Positions 36,257 to 41,364 of a stretch of DNA of 41,364 nucleotides are shown here, piece by piece. The notes under the pieces are model-generated. The model searched no databases and was not told the origin of the DNA. It saw only the letters and a program-made list of their open reading frames with translations. Position 1 is the first letter of the stretch. The number at the start of each line of letters is the position of its first letter. Both the position numbers and the translations under genes were made by a program. The stretch comes from Clostridia bacterium (GTDB lineage: Bacteria; Bacillota; Clostridia; Oscillospirales; Acutalibacteraceae). The stretch is taken from contig JAFQKN010000189.1 of NCBI GenBank assembly GCA_017396895.1, positions 1-41,364 of the forward strand, read 5' to 3'.

Positions 36257-36287
36257 ATGTTAAAAATAAAAAGTCAGGAGAGTGTTT

Positions 36288-38639
36288 ATGCCTGTTGTTG
36301 CAAAATTATTCAACACTGTAAAAGGTTTTATTGAGGAATGCAGATTGTATTGGATTCGCCCCAAACCGGGTGAATACGTCAGTTACAAAGAGATCGTCAT
36401 GCTCAGCGTTGCATGGGCGGCTATGAATATGTGCGTGCAATGGGGCATCGGTTTCGGTGTCGGTAATGAGTTTACGGGTATGACGCTGAAGATGAACAAC
36501 AATCAGTTGTTGGTTATGGGATACGTCTGTACGGCGATCGGCTATATTACCACGCCGCTGAATGCGTGGATCGTGGACAATTTGCGCAGTAAGGAAGGAA
36601 AATACCGCGTATATATCCAATTGGCGATCCCGACGATGCTTCTGACGATCCTGTCTTTGTGGTTGCCTTATGAACGTGTTCGTGATTACAATCAGCCTTA
36701 TTCACAATATGCCATGATCGCTTTGCTGTTTGTGGTCGGTCAGGTGCAGGGATATATCAAAGGTTGGTTCCAGACGGGACTTATCAATATGGTGCACGTG
36801 ATCACCCCGAATACGCAGGAACGCACAAAGATCATGTCCATCACGTCCATTATTTACAGCATGGGCTTTACGATCAACAATCTGTATTATCCTGTGATGG
36901 TCGAATTGCTGTGTGAGAACAACTACAAATACACCATGACCTATTACCGCGGTGCTTATACCCCCGTGGCGTTGCTTGCTCCCGTTTGTCTGCTTGCGTT
37001 CTATTACACGAAAGAACGTCTTGTGTTGCCCAAGAGCCGCATTACGAAACTCAGTTTTGCTGCATCCATGCGTGCGGTTGCGGGAAATAAGATATTCTGG
37101 ATCAAGTGTGCCGACGGATGGAATGACTTCCTTGAAGGCGCAAAGGGCAACGTGTGGGATTGGATGGTCTACCGTGCACATATCATGAAACCCGGCACCT
37201 ATGCAATCCTCAATACCCTTGCGCACAATGCACAGTTCTGGGCGATGCTGTTTTCGCCCGCACTCATTAAAAAGTTCGGCAAACGCAAACTCAAGATTTT
37301 CTGTAATCTTATGCAGGTCGTTTTGATCGCAGGCATCGGCATATTCCTGGAATCGAGTATTCTGCCCGTCATGCTGTTTATTATCAACTTTATCAACCGC
37401 TTTGTGGACTGCCGTGAGGTGATCGACAAAGCCATTGAATCGGATATGCGTGACAATCAGCAGTATCTCATCGGTGAGCGTATCGACGGTGCATTCGGGT
37501 TTATTCAATCGTATGCCGGCAGTGTGATCGGGGCATTCACGGGCCTGTTTGTCCCGTGGGTGTATAAGAAAAAAGGCTTTGACGGCAATGACTATTCCGT
37601 GTTGGACGTATATGTGGATTATGATGAAAACCTGCCGTTGGATCAGCAGAAAAAGAACCCCGATTGCGTTCTGTTCCCCATGCTCAAAACGCTTATCAGC
37701 ATTTCCGTGGTCGGTGCGGCGATCGACGTATTGCCGTGGCTTGCGTATGATATCACCGAGATCGGCCAGCGTTCCATGATCCGCGTCATTCGCATCCGTA
37801 CCATTGTCGAGGACAGAAAAGCGAAAATGGTGGAAGATTCCGAATATATTGAAGGCTGTGACGCACTGCGGGCGGCTGTGAAATATTCGCAACTGGAACC
37901 CGTGGAGGTGCCGTCCAGAGAAGCTTTGTCCGCGGCAAAGAAAATGCCGAATACGACACCGTCTGAAATTGCCGCCCGTGAAGAAGCGATCAAGGAGGCA
38001 CGCAAAGCCGTTGCGGATGCCGAAAACCATAATGACGAAATTGAAATCGCCAAGTTCGTTATGTTTGAACTGAACCGTTTTTCTACCGAATTCGGAAAAG
38101 CGCAACTCGCACTCGCACAGTCGATCGTGGATGCAGGTCCCGACGGATTCTACCGCCGTGCGGATGAATTTATAGCGCTTGCCGCACAACTGCCCCAAAG
38201 CACGGTCAAGGAAGAACGCGTGTGGAGAAAGCAGGATATCCGCAATGCCCGCAGCATCCGCAGAAGTGCCGCCCTTGCCAAAAAGCATTTTCCGGACGGT
38301 GTGGTGGAATTCGATCAGCAGATCTATGAAGATGCCTACAATCTGCCCGATGAAACCGCACAGCAGGCAAAAGTGCGCCGCAAGGCCATGCGCGAAGCCA
38401 GCAAACAGCGCAATCTTTACGCAAACGTCGCCGCCCCCTATCTGGCCGCACTGCGTACGGTCGATCTTGCACAGGGCTATGCCGATCTTGACGGCATTAC
38501 ATCCGATTATGACGATGTCTGCCGCCGCCGTGAAGAAACCTATGCCCGCGAAGCAGCCATGGCCGCAAAACTGGCGGAAGAGCGCAGTGCCGATGCGCAA
38601 CGCCGCAAAAACGACCGCAAAATGCGCCGCCACGGTTGA
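36288..38639 (+). CDS. GPH-like (MFS_2) transporter with a long charged C-terminal domain
   Basis: The product is 783 residues. The first ~500 form a 12-helix-type transporter resembling GPH symporters, with NAWIVDNLRSKEGKYRVYIQ (about 86-105) as the cytoplasmic loop signature. The C-terminal ~280 residues are cytoplasmic, rich in Ala, Arg, Glu and Lys and probably helical or coiled-coil, starting around IRTIVEDRKAKMVED and running to RRKNDRKMRRHG. Typical family members end near 450-500 residues, so this tail is extra. I chose the ATG at 36288, 7 bases after AGGAG. The tail has no motif I know; a regulatory or scaffold role is inference. A terminator follows. Confidence 0.82.
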   Translation: MPVVAKLFNTVKGFIEECRLYWIRPKPGEYVSYKEIVMLSVAWAAMNMCVQWGIGFGVGNEFTGMTLKMNNNQLLVMGYVCTAIGYITTPLNAWIVDNLRSKEGKYRVYIQLAIPTMLLTILSLWLPYERVRDYNQPYSQYAMIALLFVVGQVQGYIKGWFQTGLINMVHVITPNTQERTKIMSITSIIYSMGFTINNLYYPVMVELLCENNYKYTMTYYRGAYTPVALLAPVCLLAFYYTKERLVLPKSRITKLSFAASMRAVAGNKIFWIKCADGWNDFLEGAKGNVWDWMVYRAHIMKPGTYAILNTLAHNAQFWAMLFSPALIKKFGKRKLKIFCNLMQVVLIAGIGIFLESSILPVMLFIINFINRFVDCREVIDKAIESDMRDNQQYLIGERIDGAFGFIQSYAGSVIGAFTGLFVPWVYKKKGFDGNDYSVLDVYVDYDENLPLDQQKKNPDCVLFPMLKTLISISVVGAAIDVLPWLAYDITEIGQRSMIRVIRIRTIVEDRKAKMVEDSEYIEGCDALRAAVKYSQLEPVEVPSREALSAAKKMPNTTPSEIAAREEAIKEARKAVADAENHNDEIEIAKFVMFELNRFSTEFGKAQLALAQSIVDAGPDGFYRRADEFIALAAQLPQSTVKEERVWRKQDIRNARSIRRSAALAKKHFPDGVVEFDQQIYEDAYNLPDETAQQAKVRRKAMREASKQRNLYANVAAPYLAALRTVDLAQGYADLDGITSDYDDVCRRREETYAREAAMAAKLAEERSADAQRRKNDRKMRRHG

Positions 38640-38743: not shown

Positions 38744-38772
38744 TTGACGAAACGAACGGAATTTTGTAGAAT
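38744..38772 (+). promoter_or_regulatory. Promoter of the TIR-STAND gene
   Basis: -35 TTGACG (38744-38749), 17-base spacer, -10 TAGAAT (38767-38772), about 32 bases before the ATG. It shows that this gene is transcribed on its own. Confidence 0.65.
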
Positions 38773-38804
38773 AGAATCGGAGTATTCCGAAAGGAGAAAA
38801 TGTT

Positions 38805-41364
38805 ATGAGATGTGCAAAATGCAAAAACACCGATGTACAGAAATTTGAAAATGTCATGCGTGGATTCTGTCCGTCTTGCGGCGGCCTTGTTGACATTGAA
38901 TACGGTGATGAACAGGAAAAGCAGCCCATGCAGGTCTTTTTCAGCTACGGGCACGATGATCATCAGGATTTCGTGCGCCGCTTGGCGGATGCCATCATGC
39001 GTAAAACCAATGGCCGCATCAAGGTCTGGATCGACACACGGGATATCAGCGTTTACAGCCATTGGCGCGAGCGCATCACGGACGGCATTCTCAACAGCCG
39101 CAGCGTGATTGCGTTTCTGAGCAAATATTCCGCGCGTGAAAGAGGCGTGTGCCTGGACGAGCTTGCCATTGCGCTTTCAAGCAAGCACGGCATGATCAAA
39201 ACCGTTCTGCTTGAGAACAGTAAGCCGGATGATCCGGAAGGCTTTACACCGCCTGCCATGGTGGCTGAATACCAGTGGGCGAAAATGATCAACTACAAAG
39301 AATTTGCCAAAATGGGTGAAGAAGCCTTTGCGCAGTATATCGACAAACAGGCAGACCGCATTATTGATATGCTCGACGGTGACGAGGTCACGCAGTACAA
39401 CAATGAGCTCAGCCTTTTGCGCAAAAAGCTCGCTCTGCCCGAAATTGCTTACGAAACACCGCGCCTGAACCGCCTGCTGAGAACGCCTTTGGTCGGTCGT
39501 GTGTGGCTGACGGATATGGTGAATGCATGGATCAACGATGCCGATGCCAAGCCCGTGCTGATGCTTTACGGCAAGCCCGGTGCAGGAAAATCCATGTTCA
39601 GTGCGCATTTGCAACACTACAATCCGCACGTTGCAGCTTCCTTTGCCTGCAACCACCAGAGCGACGAGTTCAGCGACACAAACAAGATCATCATATGGCT
39701 TGCCTACAAACTTGCCATGCGCCTGCCCGATTACCGCAGGTATCTCTTAAAACTCTTTGAAGATCAATTTTTTGACATGGGCAGCAACAAAGACCGCTTT
39801 GACCGCTTGATCGCACAACCGTTGAGCCTTTGCATTAACGGGGAACGCGATACGATGATGATCATTATTGACGCTCTTGACGAAGCCAAAGGCGATGAAA
39901 TGGCAGGCTTTATCAGTGAATACAGCCAACTTCTTCCGCCGTGGTTGCGAATGCTCATCACCGCACGCAAAGAGCCCCACATCACCGAGCGTTTTAAGAA
40001 TTATCCGCACATCGACTTTGACGAACAGAGCGCAAACAACGAAGCTGACATCCGTGCATACTATGAAGACAAATTAGCCGATCTGCTTGCCAAACAAGAC
40101 GACCGTGCAGCCGCTTTGACCCGCCTTGTGAACGCAAGTGAGGGTGTATTCCTGTATGCCGAGGAGATCTGCCCGATTCTGAACGAAGAAGCCGAAAAAG
40201 GCGACCTTGACCTTTTGACGTTTGACCTGCCGCAGGGCATGGACAATTTGTTCCGGTTCAGTATGAAACGCAAGGACTTTACCTACCACAAGGACGGAAT
40301 GACCTATCATTACACCGATTTCTGGCGTGATCCCTTGGGAATGATCGTTGCCGCCCCGTCTCCCTTGCCTGTTGAAACACTGAAAAAACTGATGGGCTGG
40401 GATGAAAACGACTATCATTCCTTCCGTCTGCCGCTGTCGGCCTTGCTGACGGAAACCGACGGCTGTTTGCAAACATTCCACCGTTCGTTCGGTGAATGGC
40501 TGAACAAAACGGGTGAGTTCCACAGCAGCACGCAGGACGGACTTGTGAATCTTGCAAACCGCAGTTATGCCGTGTATCAGACGGGTGTAGACAGCATGGA
40601 CGAATACCTGTTGTGCAATCTCACCGCACTGTTACGTAAAGCGGATATGAAGGATGCATATGAAATTGCCGTAGCGGATGATGTGCTGATAACTGCAATG
40701 AAAAACAAAGCCACTGCATTGCGTGAGCACAACCAGTTGGAAGCCGCCTTGCAACTCTGCGAAGAACTGGTGTGTATTTTTGAACATGACACAAGTGAAA
40801 AGGGCATGAACAACTACTCCATTGCCCTTGACGAACTCGGTCGCGTGCTGGAAATAAAGAATGCATTCAAAATGGCCACGGAAGTATTCAACAAAGCATT
40901 ACAAACAGACAGAAAACTGGTTGCAGAATTCCCCGAAAATCCTGAATATCGCAGTGGTTTGTCGGTTTCGCTCAACAAGGTTGCCGACATTCTGCAAGCA
41001 CAAAACGAGTGGGAGGAAGCACTGGAACTCTATACCGAATCGTTGGAAATTGCAAGAAAACTGGCGACGGACTTCCCCGAACATCCCCAATACCGCCGCG
41101 ATCTGTCGGTTTCACTCAACAAGGTTGCCGACATTCTGCAAACACAAAACGAGTGGGATGAAGCACTGGAACTCTATACCGAATCGTTGGAAATCCGCAG
41201 AAAACTGACGGCAGACTTCCCCGAAAATCCCGGATATCGCCGCGATCTGTCGGTTTCGCTCAACAATGTTGCCTACATTCTGCAAGCACAAAATGAGTGG
41301 GATGAAGCACTGGAACTCTATACCGAATCGTTGGAAATTGCAAGAAAACTGGCGGCAGACTTCC
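38805..41364 (+). CDS. Zinc ribbon-TIR-STAND NTPase-TPR protein (cut by window edge)
   Basis: At least 853 residues; no stop before the edge. Domains in order: a zinc ribbon with Cys3, Cys6, Cys22, Cys25; a TIR domain (about 42-190) with VFFSYGHDD, VWIDTRDIS and the catalytic-type Glu119 in CLDELAIAL; a STAND/NACHT-like NTPase with Walker A GKPGAGKS (256-263), Walker B MMIIIDALDEA (351-361) and LITARKEP (384-391); and TPR-like repeats from about residue 670. AAGGAG is 8 bases before the ATG at 38805. TIR domains with this Glu usually cleave NAD; STAND proteins oligomerise on sensing a trigger, here presumably through the repeats. The layout fits a bacterial immune sensor that kills or stalls the cell. 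The partner genes and C-terminus are outside the window. Confidence 0.9.
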   Translation, partial: MRCAKCKNTDVQKFENVMRGFCPSCGGLVDIEYGDEQEKQPMQVFFSYGHDDHQDFVRRLADAIMRKTNGRIKVWIDTRDISVYSHWRERITDGILNSRSVIAFLSKYSARERGVCLDELAIALSSKHGMIKTVLLENSKPDDPEGFTPPAMVAEYQWAKMINYKEFAKMGEEAFAQYIDKQADRIIDMLDGDEVTQYNNELSLLRKKLALPEIAYETPRLNRLLRTPLVGRVWLTDMVNAWINDADAKPVLMLYGKPGAGKSMFSAHLQHYNPHVAASFACNHQSDEFSDTNKIIIWLAYKLAMRLPDYRRYLLKLFEDQFFDMGSNKDRFDRLIAQPLSLCINGERDTMMIIIDALDEAKGDEMAGFISEYSQLLPPWLRMLITARKEPHITERFKNYPHIDFDEQSANNEADIRAYYEDKLADLLAKQDDRAAALTRLVNASEGVFLYAEEICPILNEEAEKGDLDLLTFDLPQGMDNLFRFSMKRKDFTYHKDGMTYHYTDFWRDPLGMIVAAPSPLPVETLKKLMGWDENDYHSFRLPLSALLTETDGCLQTFHRSFGEWLNKTGEFHSSTQDGLVNLANRSYAVYQTGVDSMDEYLLCNLTALLRKADMKDAYEIAVADDVLITAMKNKATALREHNQLEAALQLCEELVCIFEHDTSEKGMNNYSIALDELGRVLEIKNAFKMATEVFNKALQTDRKLVAEFPENPEYRSGLSVSLNKVADILQAQNEWEEALELYTESLEIARKLATDFPEHPQYRRDLSVSLNKVADILQTQNEWDEALELYTESLEIRRKLTADFPENPGYRRDLSVSLNNVAYILQAQNEWDEALELYTESLEIARKLAADF
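40917..41348 (+). repeat. Three tandem 144-bp coding repeats (48-residue TPR units)
   Basis: Three consecutive units start at 40917, 41061 and 41205, each exactly 144 bases, with a fourth beginning at 41349. Each encodes a 48-residue helical pair with the cores DLSVSLNKVADILQ and WDEALELYTESLEI. The last half of each unit is nearly identical at the DNA level, so the copies are recent or kept alike by recombination. A more diverged unit precedes them near 40810. Confidence 0.92.

Follow-up and report, generated by a model that had tools for sequence, protein, structure and literature searches.

A candidate bacterial NLR-like receptor that combines a zinc ribbon, a TIR domain, a STAND NTPase and a TPR array

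Plant TIR-NLRs such as RPP1, RUN1 and Roq1 join a TIR effector, a STAND nucleoside triphosphatase (NTPase) and a repeat sensor in one chain, and carry NB-ARC and leucine-rich repeats. Human NPHP3 (nephrocystin-3) has a TIR-like DUF4062 domain beside a NACHT ATPase, and DUF4062 proteins (Swarozyc) are TIR-like enzymes that cleave nicotinamide adenine dinucleotide (NAD+) (PMC13174449, a preprint; papers are cited here from excerpts, apart from the main text of PMC8195603). Some described STAND receptors sense through TPRs (PMC12931631, PMC10907252), TIR effectors also appearing in PMC10907252, and zinc ribbons occur on GTPases of conflict systems in which TIR serves as an effector (PMC7159879). 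Cat1, a CRISPR-associated TIR protein and antiviral NADase, is switched by cyclic oligo-adenylate through its CARF domain (PMC12162218), and composite TIR sites are formed by assembly in Cat1 (PMC12162218) and SpbK (PMC12847820). Here we analyse a gene that encodes a zinc ribbon, a TIR domain, a STAND NTPase and TPR repeats in a single chain, located at the end of a 41,364-nucleotide contig of a Clostridia bacterium (JAFQKN010000189.1, assembly GCA_017396895.1). This whole contig (C141) is the window of our analysis, within a genome of 2.69 Mb in 194 contigs that is 90% complete. The gene product is probably a bacterial NLR-like immune receptor in which the TPR array senses a trigger, the STAND NTPase oligomerises and the TIR domain cleaves NAD+.

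The protein follows an NLR-like tripartite plan, with the effector towards the N-terminus, a STAND NTPase bearing Walker A and B motifs in the middle and the repeat sensor towards the C-terminus, and has a four-cysteine zinc ribbon (Cys 3, 6, 22 and 25) at its very start (Table 1). An earlier note, made from the letters of the window, had read the same domains in the same order, and each was recovered here. The NTPase scores 74.5 bits against the Pfam family NPHP3_N at residues 237-388 (cut-off 24.8) with both Walker motifs intact (GKPGAGKS and DALDE); because it misses the Pfam NACHT cut-off (PF05729; 14.1 versus 26.7 bits), which its relative L048 passes with 34 bits, we call the domain STAND. 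Several Pfam TPR families match the repeats, which fall into 48-residue units. An AlphaFold model of residues 1-498, built from 34 sequences, reached a predicted local distance difference test score (pLDDT) of 85.3 and a predicted template-modelling score (pTM) of 0.77, and the ribbon–TIR unit, which the earlier note had suggested modelling, shows both ribbon strands and a helix containing Glu119. The best Foldseek match to the model is the RPP1 tetramer (E 1.3e-10), with a template-modelling score (TM-score) of 0.27 that is low because the domains are placed differently. VIA scores, in which differences under 1 are ties, were 13.8 for MalT (3.1 Å over 236 residues) and 13.6 for Avs3 (3.2 Å over 229), 12.9 for RPP1 and 11.8 for a STAND–TPR protein; the TIR part has the TIR fold, matching the SPARTA TIR (13.7; 2.4 Å over 130), the RUN1 TIR (13.5) and AbTIR (12.9). 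Avs3, SPARTA and RUN1 resemble single domains only, and a chain-level fold search of this kind does not exclude unlisted families.

Compared with plant TIR-NLRs, the window protein is bacterial, has an NPHP3_N-type STAND domain, TPR repeats and an N-terminal ribbon, and differs in modelled domain layout (root-mean-square deviation from RPP1 16.6 over 355 residues). It shares the STAND family NPHP3_N with human nephrocystin-3, and the family TPR_NPHP3 matches its relatives L048 (above cut-off) and L031 (below); unlike nephrocystin-3 and the DUF4062 NADases, it carries a canonical TIR_2 domain in place of DUF4062, and a ribbon. The STAND–TPR part takes the place held by CARF in Cat1, and an N-terminal TIR effector and ribbon set the protein apart from Avs (AVAST) receptors such as Avs3 and Avs5. 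DO-GTPases likewise place an N-terminal zinc ribbon on a conflict-system NTPase, but the NTPase is a different one and the excerpted text of PMC7159879 gives no TIR in the same chain.

The active site proposed for the TIR domain agrees with that of Cat1. Cat1 ranks first among solved TIRs with a profile of 26 of these TIR domains (E 8.8e-10) and fourth with a profile of seven, in which AbTIR ranks first, and in both alignments Glu119 is in register with Cat1 Glu74 (the Cat1 position being counted in the printed alignment). Ser47 and Asp77 correspond to Cat1 Ser7 and Asp33. The lining of the Cat1 NADase site includes Ser7, Asp33 and Glu74, and the E74A variant is defective in causing growth arrest (PMC12162218). 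Glu119 lies near the start of modelled helix 115-127, which follows strand C and is confidently predicted, so that the earlier assignment of an NADase-type glutamate agrees with both alignment and model. All 34 aligned rows carry Glu119, with Asp77 and Ser47 kept; the invariance of Glu119 is partly one of choice, because most rows came from a scan with two patterns of which one contained the Glu119 motif. By these likenesses the TIR domain would cleave NAD+.

The gene is not core, and its distribution is patchy and accessory. With the N-terminal 498 residues as query (E 1e-10, the own genome counted in each sample), matches were present in 1 of 26 genus genomes, that one being the own genome (0 of 25 congeners; 12 of the 26 at least 90% complete), in 3 of 300 family genomes, in 1 of 295 order genomes and in 3 of 299 phylum-sample genomes, where G670 matched in the STAND part only; a profile at E 1e-20 gave 3 of 291 class genomes. 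The possibility of a conserved core gene, held up in the earlier note as a way for its proposal to fail, therefore does not apply. Nothing was found with the single window sequence in a wider genome-contig collection, in which an alignment-based profile scan returned 45 loci. Seven of these (L058 and L067-L072) were short, weak or without a TIR part and were dropped, leaving 38 related proteins; L029 and L036 lie on contigs of G268 and G290 and are not independent of those genomes' matches.

The ribbon is a recurrent partner of TIR–STAND proteins in several phyla, and not the unusual addition that the earlier note had taken it for. It is present at the N-terminus of 17 of the 38 related proteins, in 16 of them in frame; in L029, whose gene is interrupted, it occupies a different frame (seen on L020, from the same contig). 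This interrupted gene (L020:1824-5436) is a close relative from another genus of the family, broken by frame changes that reflect decay or sequencing error. The ribbon-bearing relatives span Bacillota, Bacteroidota, Spirochaetota and Pseudomonadota, and two of them, from Frisingicoccus caecimuris DSM 28559 and Polynucleobacter sp., belong to records without a metagenome-bin label. All four cysteines are invariant in 18 of 18 aligned proteins, a set chosen for having the ribbon, and the ribbon presumably binds zinc. In a tree of 40 rows, from which L054 (the same protein as L053) and the ribbon-bearing L057 (too short) were left out, the window copies group with L028 and L029 (100/100), all ribbon-bearing. 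On this tree, examined for a single origin of the ribbon, the ribbon label needs 6 changes against a mean of 13.6 when shuffled, indicating that the ribbon is clustered yet has been gained or lost several times.

A number of ribbon-bearing relatives lie near other TIR or STAND genes. We surveyed open reading frames (first 70 residues) around 12 ribbon loci and around L050, which lacks the ribbon, and found such genes near 7 of the 12, although by eye none was recognised on the visible sides of the three copies in the own genome; the earlier note had said that clustering near other defence genes in relatives would support its idea. Pfam identified a TIR–NB-ARC–TPR gene and a RyR gene at L034, a DUF4062–TPR gene with a STAND match just below cut-off together with a TIR–WD40 gene at L038, a TIR gene without a STAND match at L039 and a STAND–WD40 gene about 3 kb away at L048. 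The upstream neighbour at L042 (L042:1865-8002) encodes 2045 residues with TIR, BspA-type leucine-rich and TPR repeats; L031 is preceded by a second ribbon–TIR gene of like orientation (only the start read; L031:2314-12320), the two being separated by a 552-residue gene, and L044 has a second TIR gene nearby (start of the sequence only). No TIR or STAND neighbour was seen in the survey at L028, L032, L033, L037 and L046, some of which are on short contigs; three upstream genes scanned at L037 gave nothing above Pfam cut-offs. L029 (as L020) adjoins a divergent NACHT gene with a TIR match below cut-off, and no TIR or STAND neighbour was recognised at L036 (as L021). On contig C7 of G664 (L025, L026), two TIR–STAND genes without a ribbon stand among TIR, TrkA–RyR, SLOG-like/RyR and RelA/SpoT genes, the SLOG match being just below cut-off, with a transposase recognised by eye.

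Three ribbon–TIR–STAND genes in three phyla (L032, L038 and L042) are followed by a conserved gene whose product has about 300 residues, with 51-65% identity to the L032 product. It has a C-terminal Nudix domain (75 bits in Pfam on L032), its N-terminal half is cupin-like by eye, and PADLOC assigns PDC-S07 to all three genes.

The TPR array is built of units of exactly 48 residues in all copies of the own genome. C11 contains thirteen units, C152 three, and C141 shows three before the contig end truncates the last; in C13 five unit starts were located, the fifth unit again being incomplete, and on C177 twelve starts were matched. For C11, Tandem Repeats Finder reports a 144-base array with 13.4 copies. 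Across C11, C13, C141 and C152, 22 units are complete; their mean DNA identity is 80%, with amino-acid variation peaking at unit positions 4, 14, 15, 26 and 40. A 291-residue stretch of C11 homologous to the C141 units was predicted from one sequence, with a pLDDT of 96.6, as paired helices of about 20 residues; in our unit numbering helix A spans positions 3-22 and helix B 26-46. To measure selection, six positions were chosen in paralogue C11 and assessed in nine complete units of the other copies, in which protein-changing differences at the chosen positions were 3.3 times those elsewhere (0.258 versus 0.077). Relative to the overall silent rate these differences reach only 1.15 (5-95%: 0.82-1.47), so the test demonstrates free variation and not positive selection, and only positions 4 and 40 of the six fall in the top six of the other set. 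The exact 48-residue array is not general to relatives, since L031 has less regular 141-base arrays and L048 has none.

The N-terminal half of the gene is present in three copies in the own genome, 81-82% identical (C141, C11 and C13). The C11 copy is full length, with 1371 residues counted from the aligned ATG, and the C13 copy is cut by its contig start. The promoter that the earlier note had assigned to the gene, matching 10 of 12 consensus positions, has counterparts before both paralogues. Upstream of all three, TTGACGAA and the ribosome-binding site are identical and a TGTA(A/G)AAT box is kept, whereas the remaining upstream DNA has diverged. In the open-reading-frame reading, the frame from the ATG at 38805 reaches the last base of C141 without a stop codon; the likeness of the TPR units probably caused the assembly to break at this end. 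Contigs C152 and C177 each carry TPR units and a stop at one end, and the end of C141 shares 45 identical bases with the start of C152. With repeats so alike, this overlap alone says little; synteny with the congener G869 carries more weight. There, the left-flank gene is followed by an AAA_14/DUF4143 gene, a DUF6809 gene and then counterparts of the C152 genes, so that C152 is likely the right flank of the window copy. The flank to the stop codon that the earlier note had wanted thus likely has its downstream side in C152. The place of the receptor is a variable slot, occupied by the receptor here and by other genes in G869 (AAA_14/DUF4143 and DUF6809, L096:4619-7539). Genes after the same left-flank gene differ again in G261 and G187.

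The domains and motifs, the predicted fold, the patchy distribution, the promoter kept in three paralogues and the relatives near TIR or STAND genes together point to an NLR-like receptor, and what is known of how STAND receptors and TIR enzymes act suggests how it would work. At rest, the long TPR array and the lid would keep the STAND NTPase closed. Once the TPR array bound a foreign trigger, in all likelihood a phage protein, the NTPase would exchange nucleotide and oligomerise. TIR domains brought side by side would then form a composite active site with Glu119, Asp77 and Ser47 and cleave NAD+, and the loss of NAD+ or an ADP-ribose-type product would halt growth of the infected cell. The ribbon would bind zinc and probably dock, seed or stabilise the TIR assembly, or contact a partner or nucleic acid. 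The earlier proposal of a likely immune sensor is strengthened by the non-core distribution, by the register of Glu119 with Cat1 Glu74 and by the neighbours of the relatives; immunity itself is what we infer from these.

Several observations weigh against an immune receptor. In the HMMER alignments to AbTIR from both profiles, Glu119 lies three residues from the glutamate that we take to be catalytic there. Contigs C11, C13, C152 and C177 and the last 11 kb before the window copy showed no recognisable defence neighbours when read by eye. Thoeris, SPARTA or CBASS-TIR partners (ThsA, Argonaute, cyclase) were likewise not recognised by eye, a search made without profiles, in that 11 kb or on C152. 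The PADLOC search that the earlier note had named as a check gave candidate or partial matches to the window protein, the best being PDC-S66 (8.7e-11) over part of the TIR domain, and no Avs profile matched up to E 1, with weak Avs1b matches in relatives L032 and L048. Searches of plasmid, phage and viral-contig collections with the single sequence, without profiles, returned no match, and positive selection at the variable TPR positions is not proven in the held-out units.

Four other explanations were weighed. A STAND protein of ordinary physiology, acting in signalling or transcription control by MalT-like logic with the TIR as an assembly module only and the ribbon binding DNA or RNA, is improbable given the patchy presence of the gene, the retention of Glu119, Asp77 and Ser47, the relatives adjoining other TIR or STAND genes and the finding of essentially TPR families after the STAND part of C11 (best 25 of 28 Pfam families). 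The same TIR–STAND mechanism could instead serve a conflict that does not involve phages, such as plasmid or mobile-element exclusion, kin recognition or regulated cell death. The anatomy would then be identical; the close likeness among the repeats is reminiscent of fungal NLRs in which internal repeats are highly conserved (PMC12222747), and the TIR–STAND genes of G664 lie beside RyR, SLOG-like and RelA/SpoT genes. We consider such a role unlikely, as anti-phage action is what the cited papers report for characterised STAND and TIR proteins (PMC12931631, PMC12162218, PMC12847820).

An enzymatically dead TIR, serving as an adaptor that recruits another effector, would fit the offset from the AbTIR glutamate and the TIR gene without a STAND match beside L039, but is very doubtful in view of the Glu119 invariance (partly by pattern choice) and its register with Cat1 Glu74. 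It would be most surprising if the four cysteines were a chance N-terminal extension or the product of a wrong start codon. The ribbon is only 32 residues long, and the window protein matches no Pfam ribbon family among the best 25 of 35 families. Against chance stand the recurrence of the ribbon and its aligned cysteines among relatives, in which it resembles Zn_Ribbon_TF, IS1595 and PhnA ribbons (all below the Pfam cut-off), two modelled strands at residues 19-22 and 27-32 (mean pLDDT 79-92 across the three ten-residue blocks of 1-30), and the promoter and ribosome-binding site directly upstream, which are kept in the paralogues.

If the immune-receptor reading is correct, the gene adds a bacterial receptor that is laid out overall like plant TIR-NLRs and human nephrocystin-3 and bears a zinc module at its tip. 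The paralogues with highly similar repeats would offer a natural system in which to study target change in a bacterial NLR-like sensor, and the Nudix partner, present in three phyla, a testable link between the TIR product and a downstream step. A broader and more tentative proposal is that ribbon–TIR–STAND proteins form a distinct cross-phylum class of bacterial TIR-NLRs whose ribbon works in TIR assembly and was joined to TIRs more than once. One branch may use its cupin-like/Nudix protein to handle the TIR product; in the window branch, recognition may evolve as near-identical 48-residue TPR units, variable at a few positions, are multiplied and exchanged, much as in fungal NLRs with internally conserved repeats. 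Proteins of this kind may already be in print: we did not find them described in open-licence literature, the excerpts of PMC7159879, PMC7824862, PMC3710099 and PMC8136825 do not place ribbon, TIR and STAND in one protein, and the main text of PMC8195603 contains neither 'zinc ribbon' nor 'ZnR'.

Table 1. Positions of the receptor gene, its domains and motifs, and associated genes (window coordinates unless a locus is named)
Feature	Position	Strand	Basis or remark
Ribbon–TIR–STAND–TPR gene	38805..41364	+	ATG at 38805, 853 codons seen, frame open at contig end
Promoter, sigma-70-like, TTGACG-17-TAGAAT	38744..38772	+	10/12 consensus matches
Ribosome-binding site, AAAGGAG	38790..38796	+	read from sequence; identical in three paralogues
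N-terminal zinc ribbon, residues 1-32, Cys 3, 6, 22, 25	38805..38900	+	two CxxC pairs; modelled strands
TIR domain, residues 42-163	38928..39293	+	Pfam TIR_2 at 44-163, 62.4 bits versus cut-off 28
Glu119 codon, proposed catalytic glutamate	39159..39161	+	in register with Cat1 Glu74
STAND NTPase (NPHP3_N type) with helical lid, residues 219-489	39459..40271	+	Pfam NPHP3_N
Walker A, GKPGAGKS, residues 256-263	39570..39593	+	read from sequence
Walker B, MMIIIDALDE	39855..39884	+	read from sequence
First three 48-residue TPR units, from residue 711, third cut by contig end	40935..41364	+	Pfam TPR families; unit matching
Upstream gene, transporter-like by eye, left flank of variable slot	36282..38639	+	87-88% identical in three congeners
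Cupin-like/Nudix partner genes	L032:10973-11884, L038:10970-11866, L042:10931-11833		directly downstream of ribbon–TIR–STAND genes, three phyla

A ribbon placed before a TIR domain also recurs in these bacteria outside the STAND proteins, as 4 of 6 other TIR genes in the own genome and 7 of 28 TIR loci fetched from other genomes of the family carry one. The own genome has nine TIR_2 matches above cut-off, three being the ribbon–TIR–STAND copies, and its other ribbon (CxxC...CxxC) TIR genes lie on contigs C191, C50 and C100 (L097:1-4862, two genes; L098:465-3362; L099:782-2869). The 28 loci were drawn from 67 TIR matches in a 60-genome family sample, 58 of them in other genomes; two of the 28 (L108 and L122) were read on the strand opposite to the match, and their ribbon state counts as untested. 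In the seven ribbon-bearing loci the TIR domain begins about 157-191 residues in. These ribbon–spacer–TIR proteins resemble the window protein in their N-terminal ribbon and TIR domain and differ from it in the start of the TIR, mostly at about residue 157, and in RCC1 repeats in place of STAND, found with the TIR in both own-genome proteins scanned with Pfam. On contig C90 of the own genome, Pfam places a TIR domain and an ornithine/arginine decarboxylase-type domain in a single open frame (L100:3387-5885).

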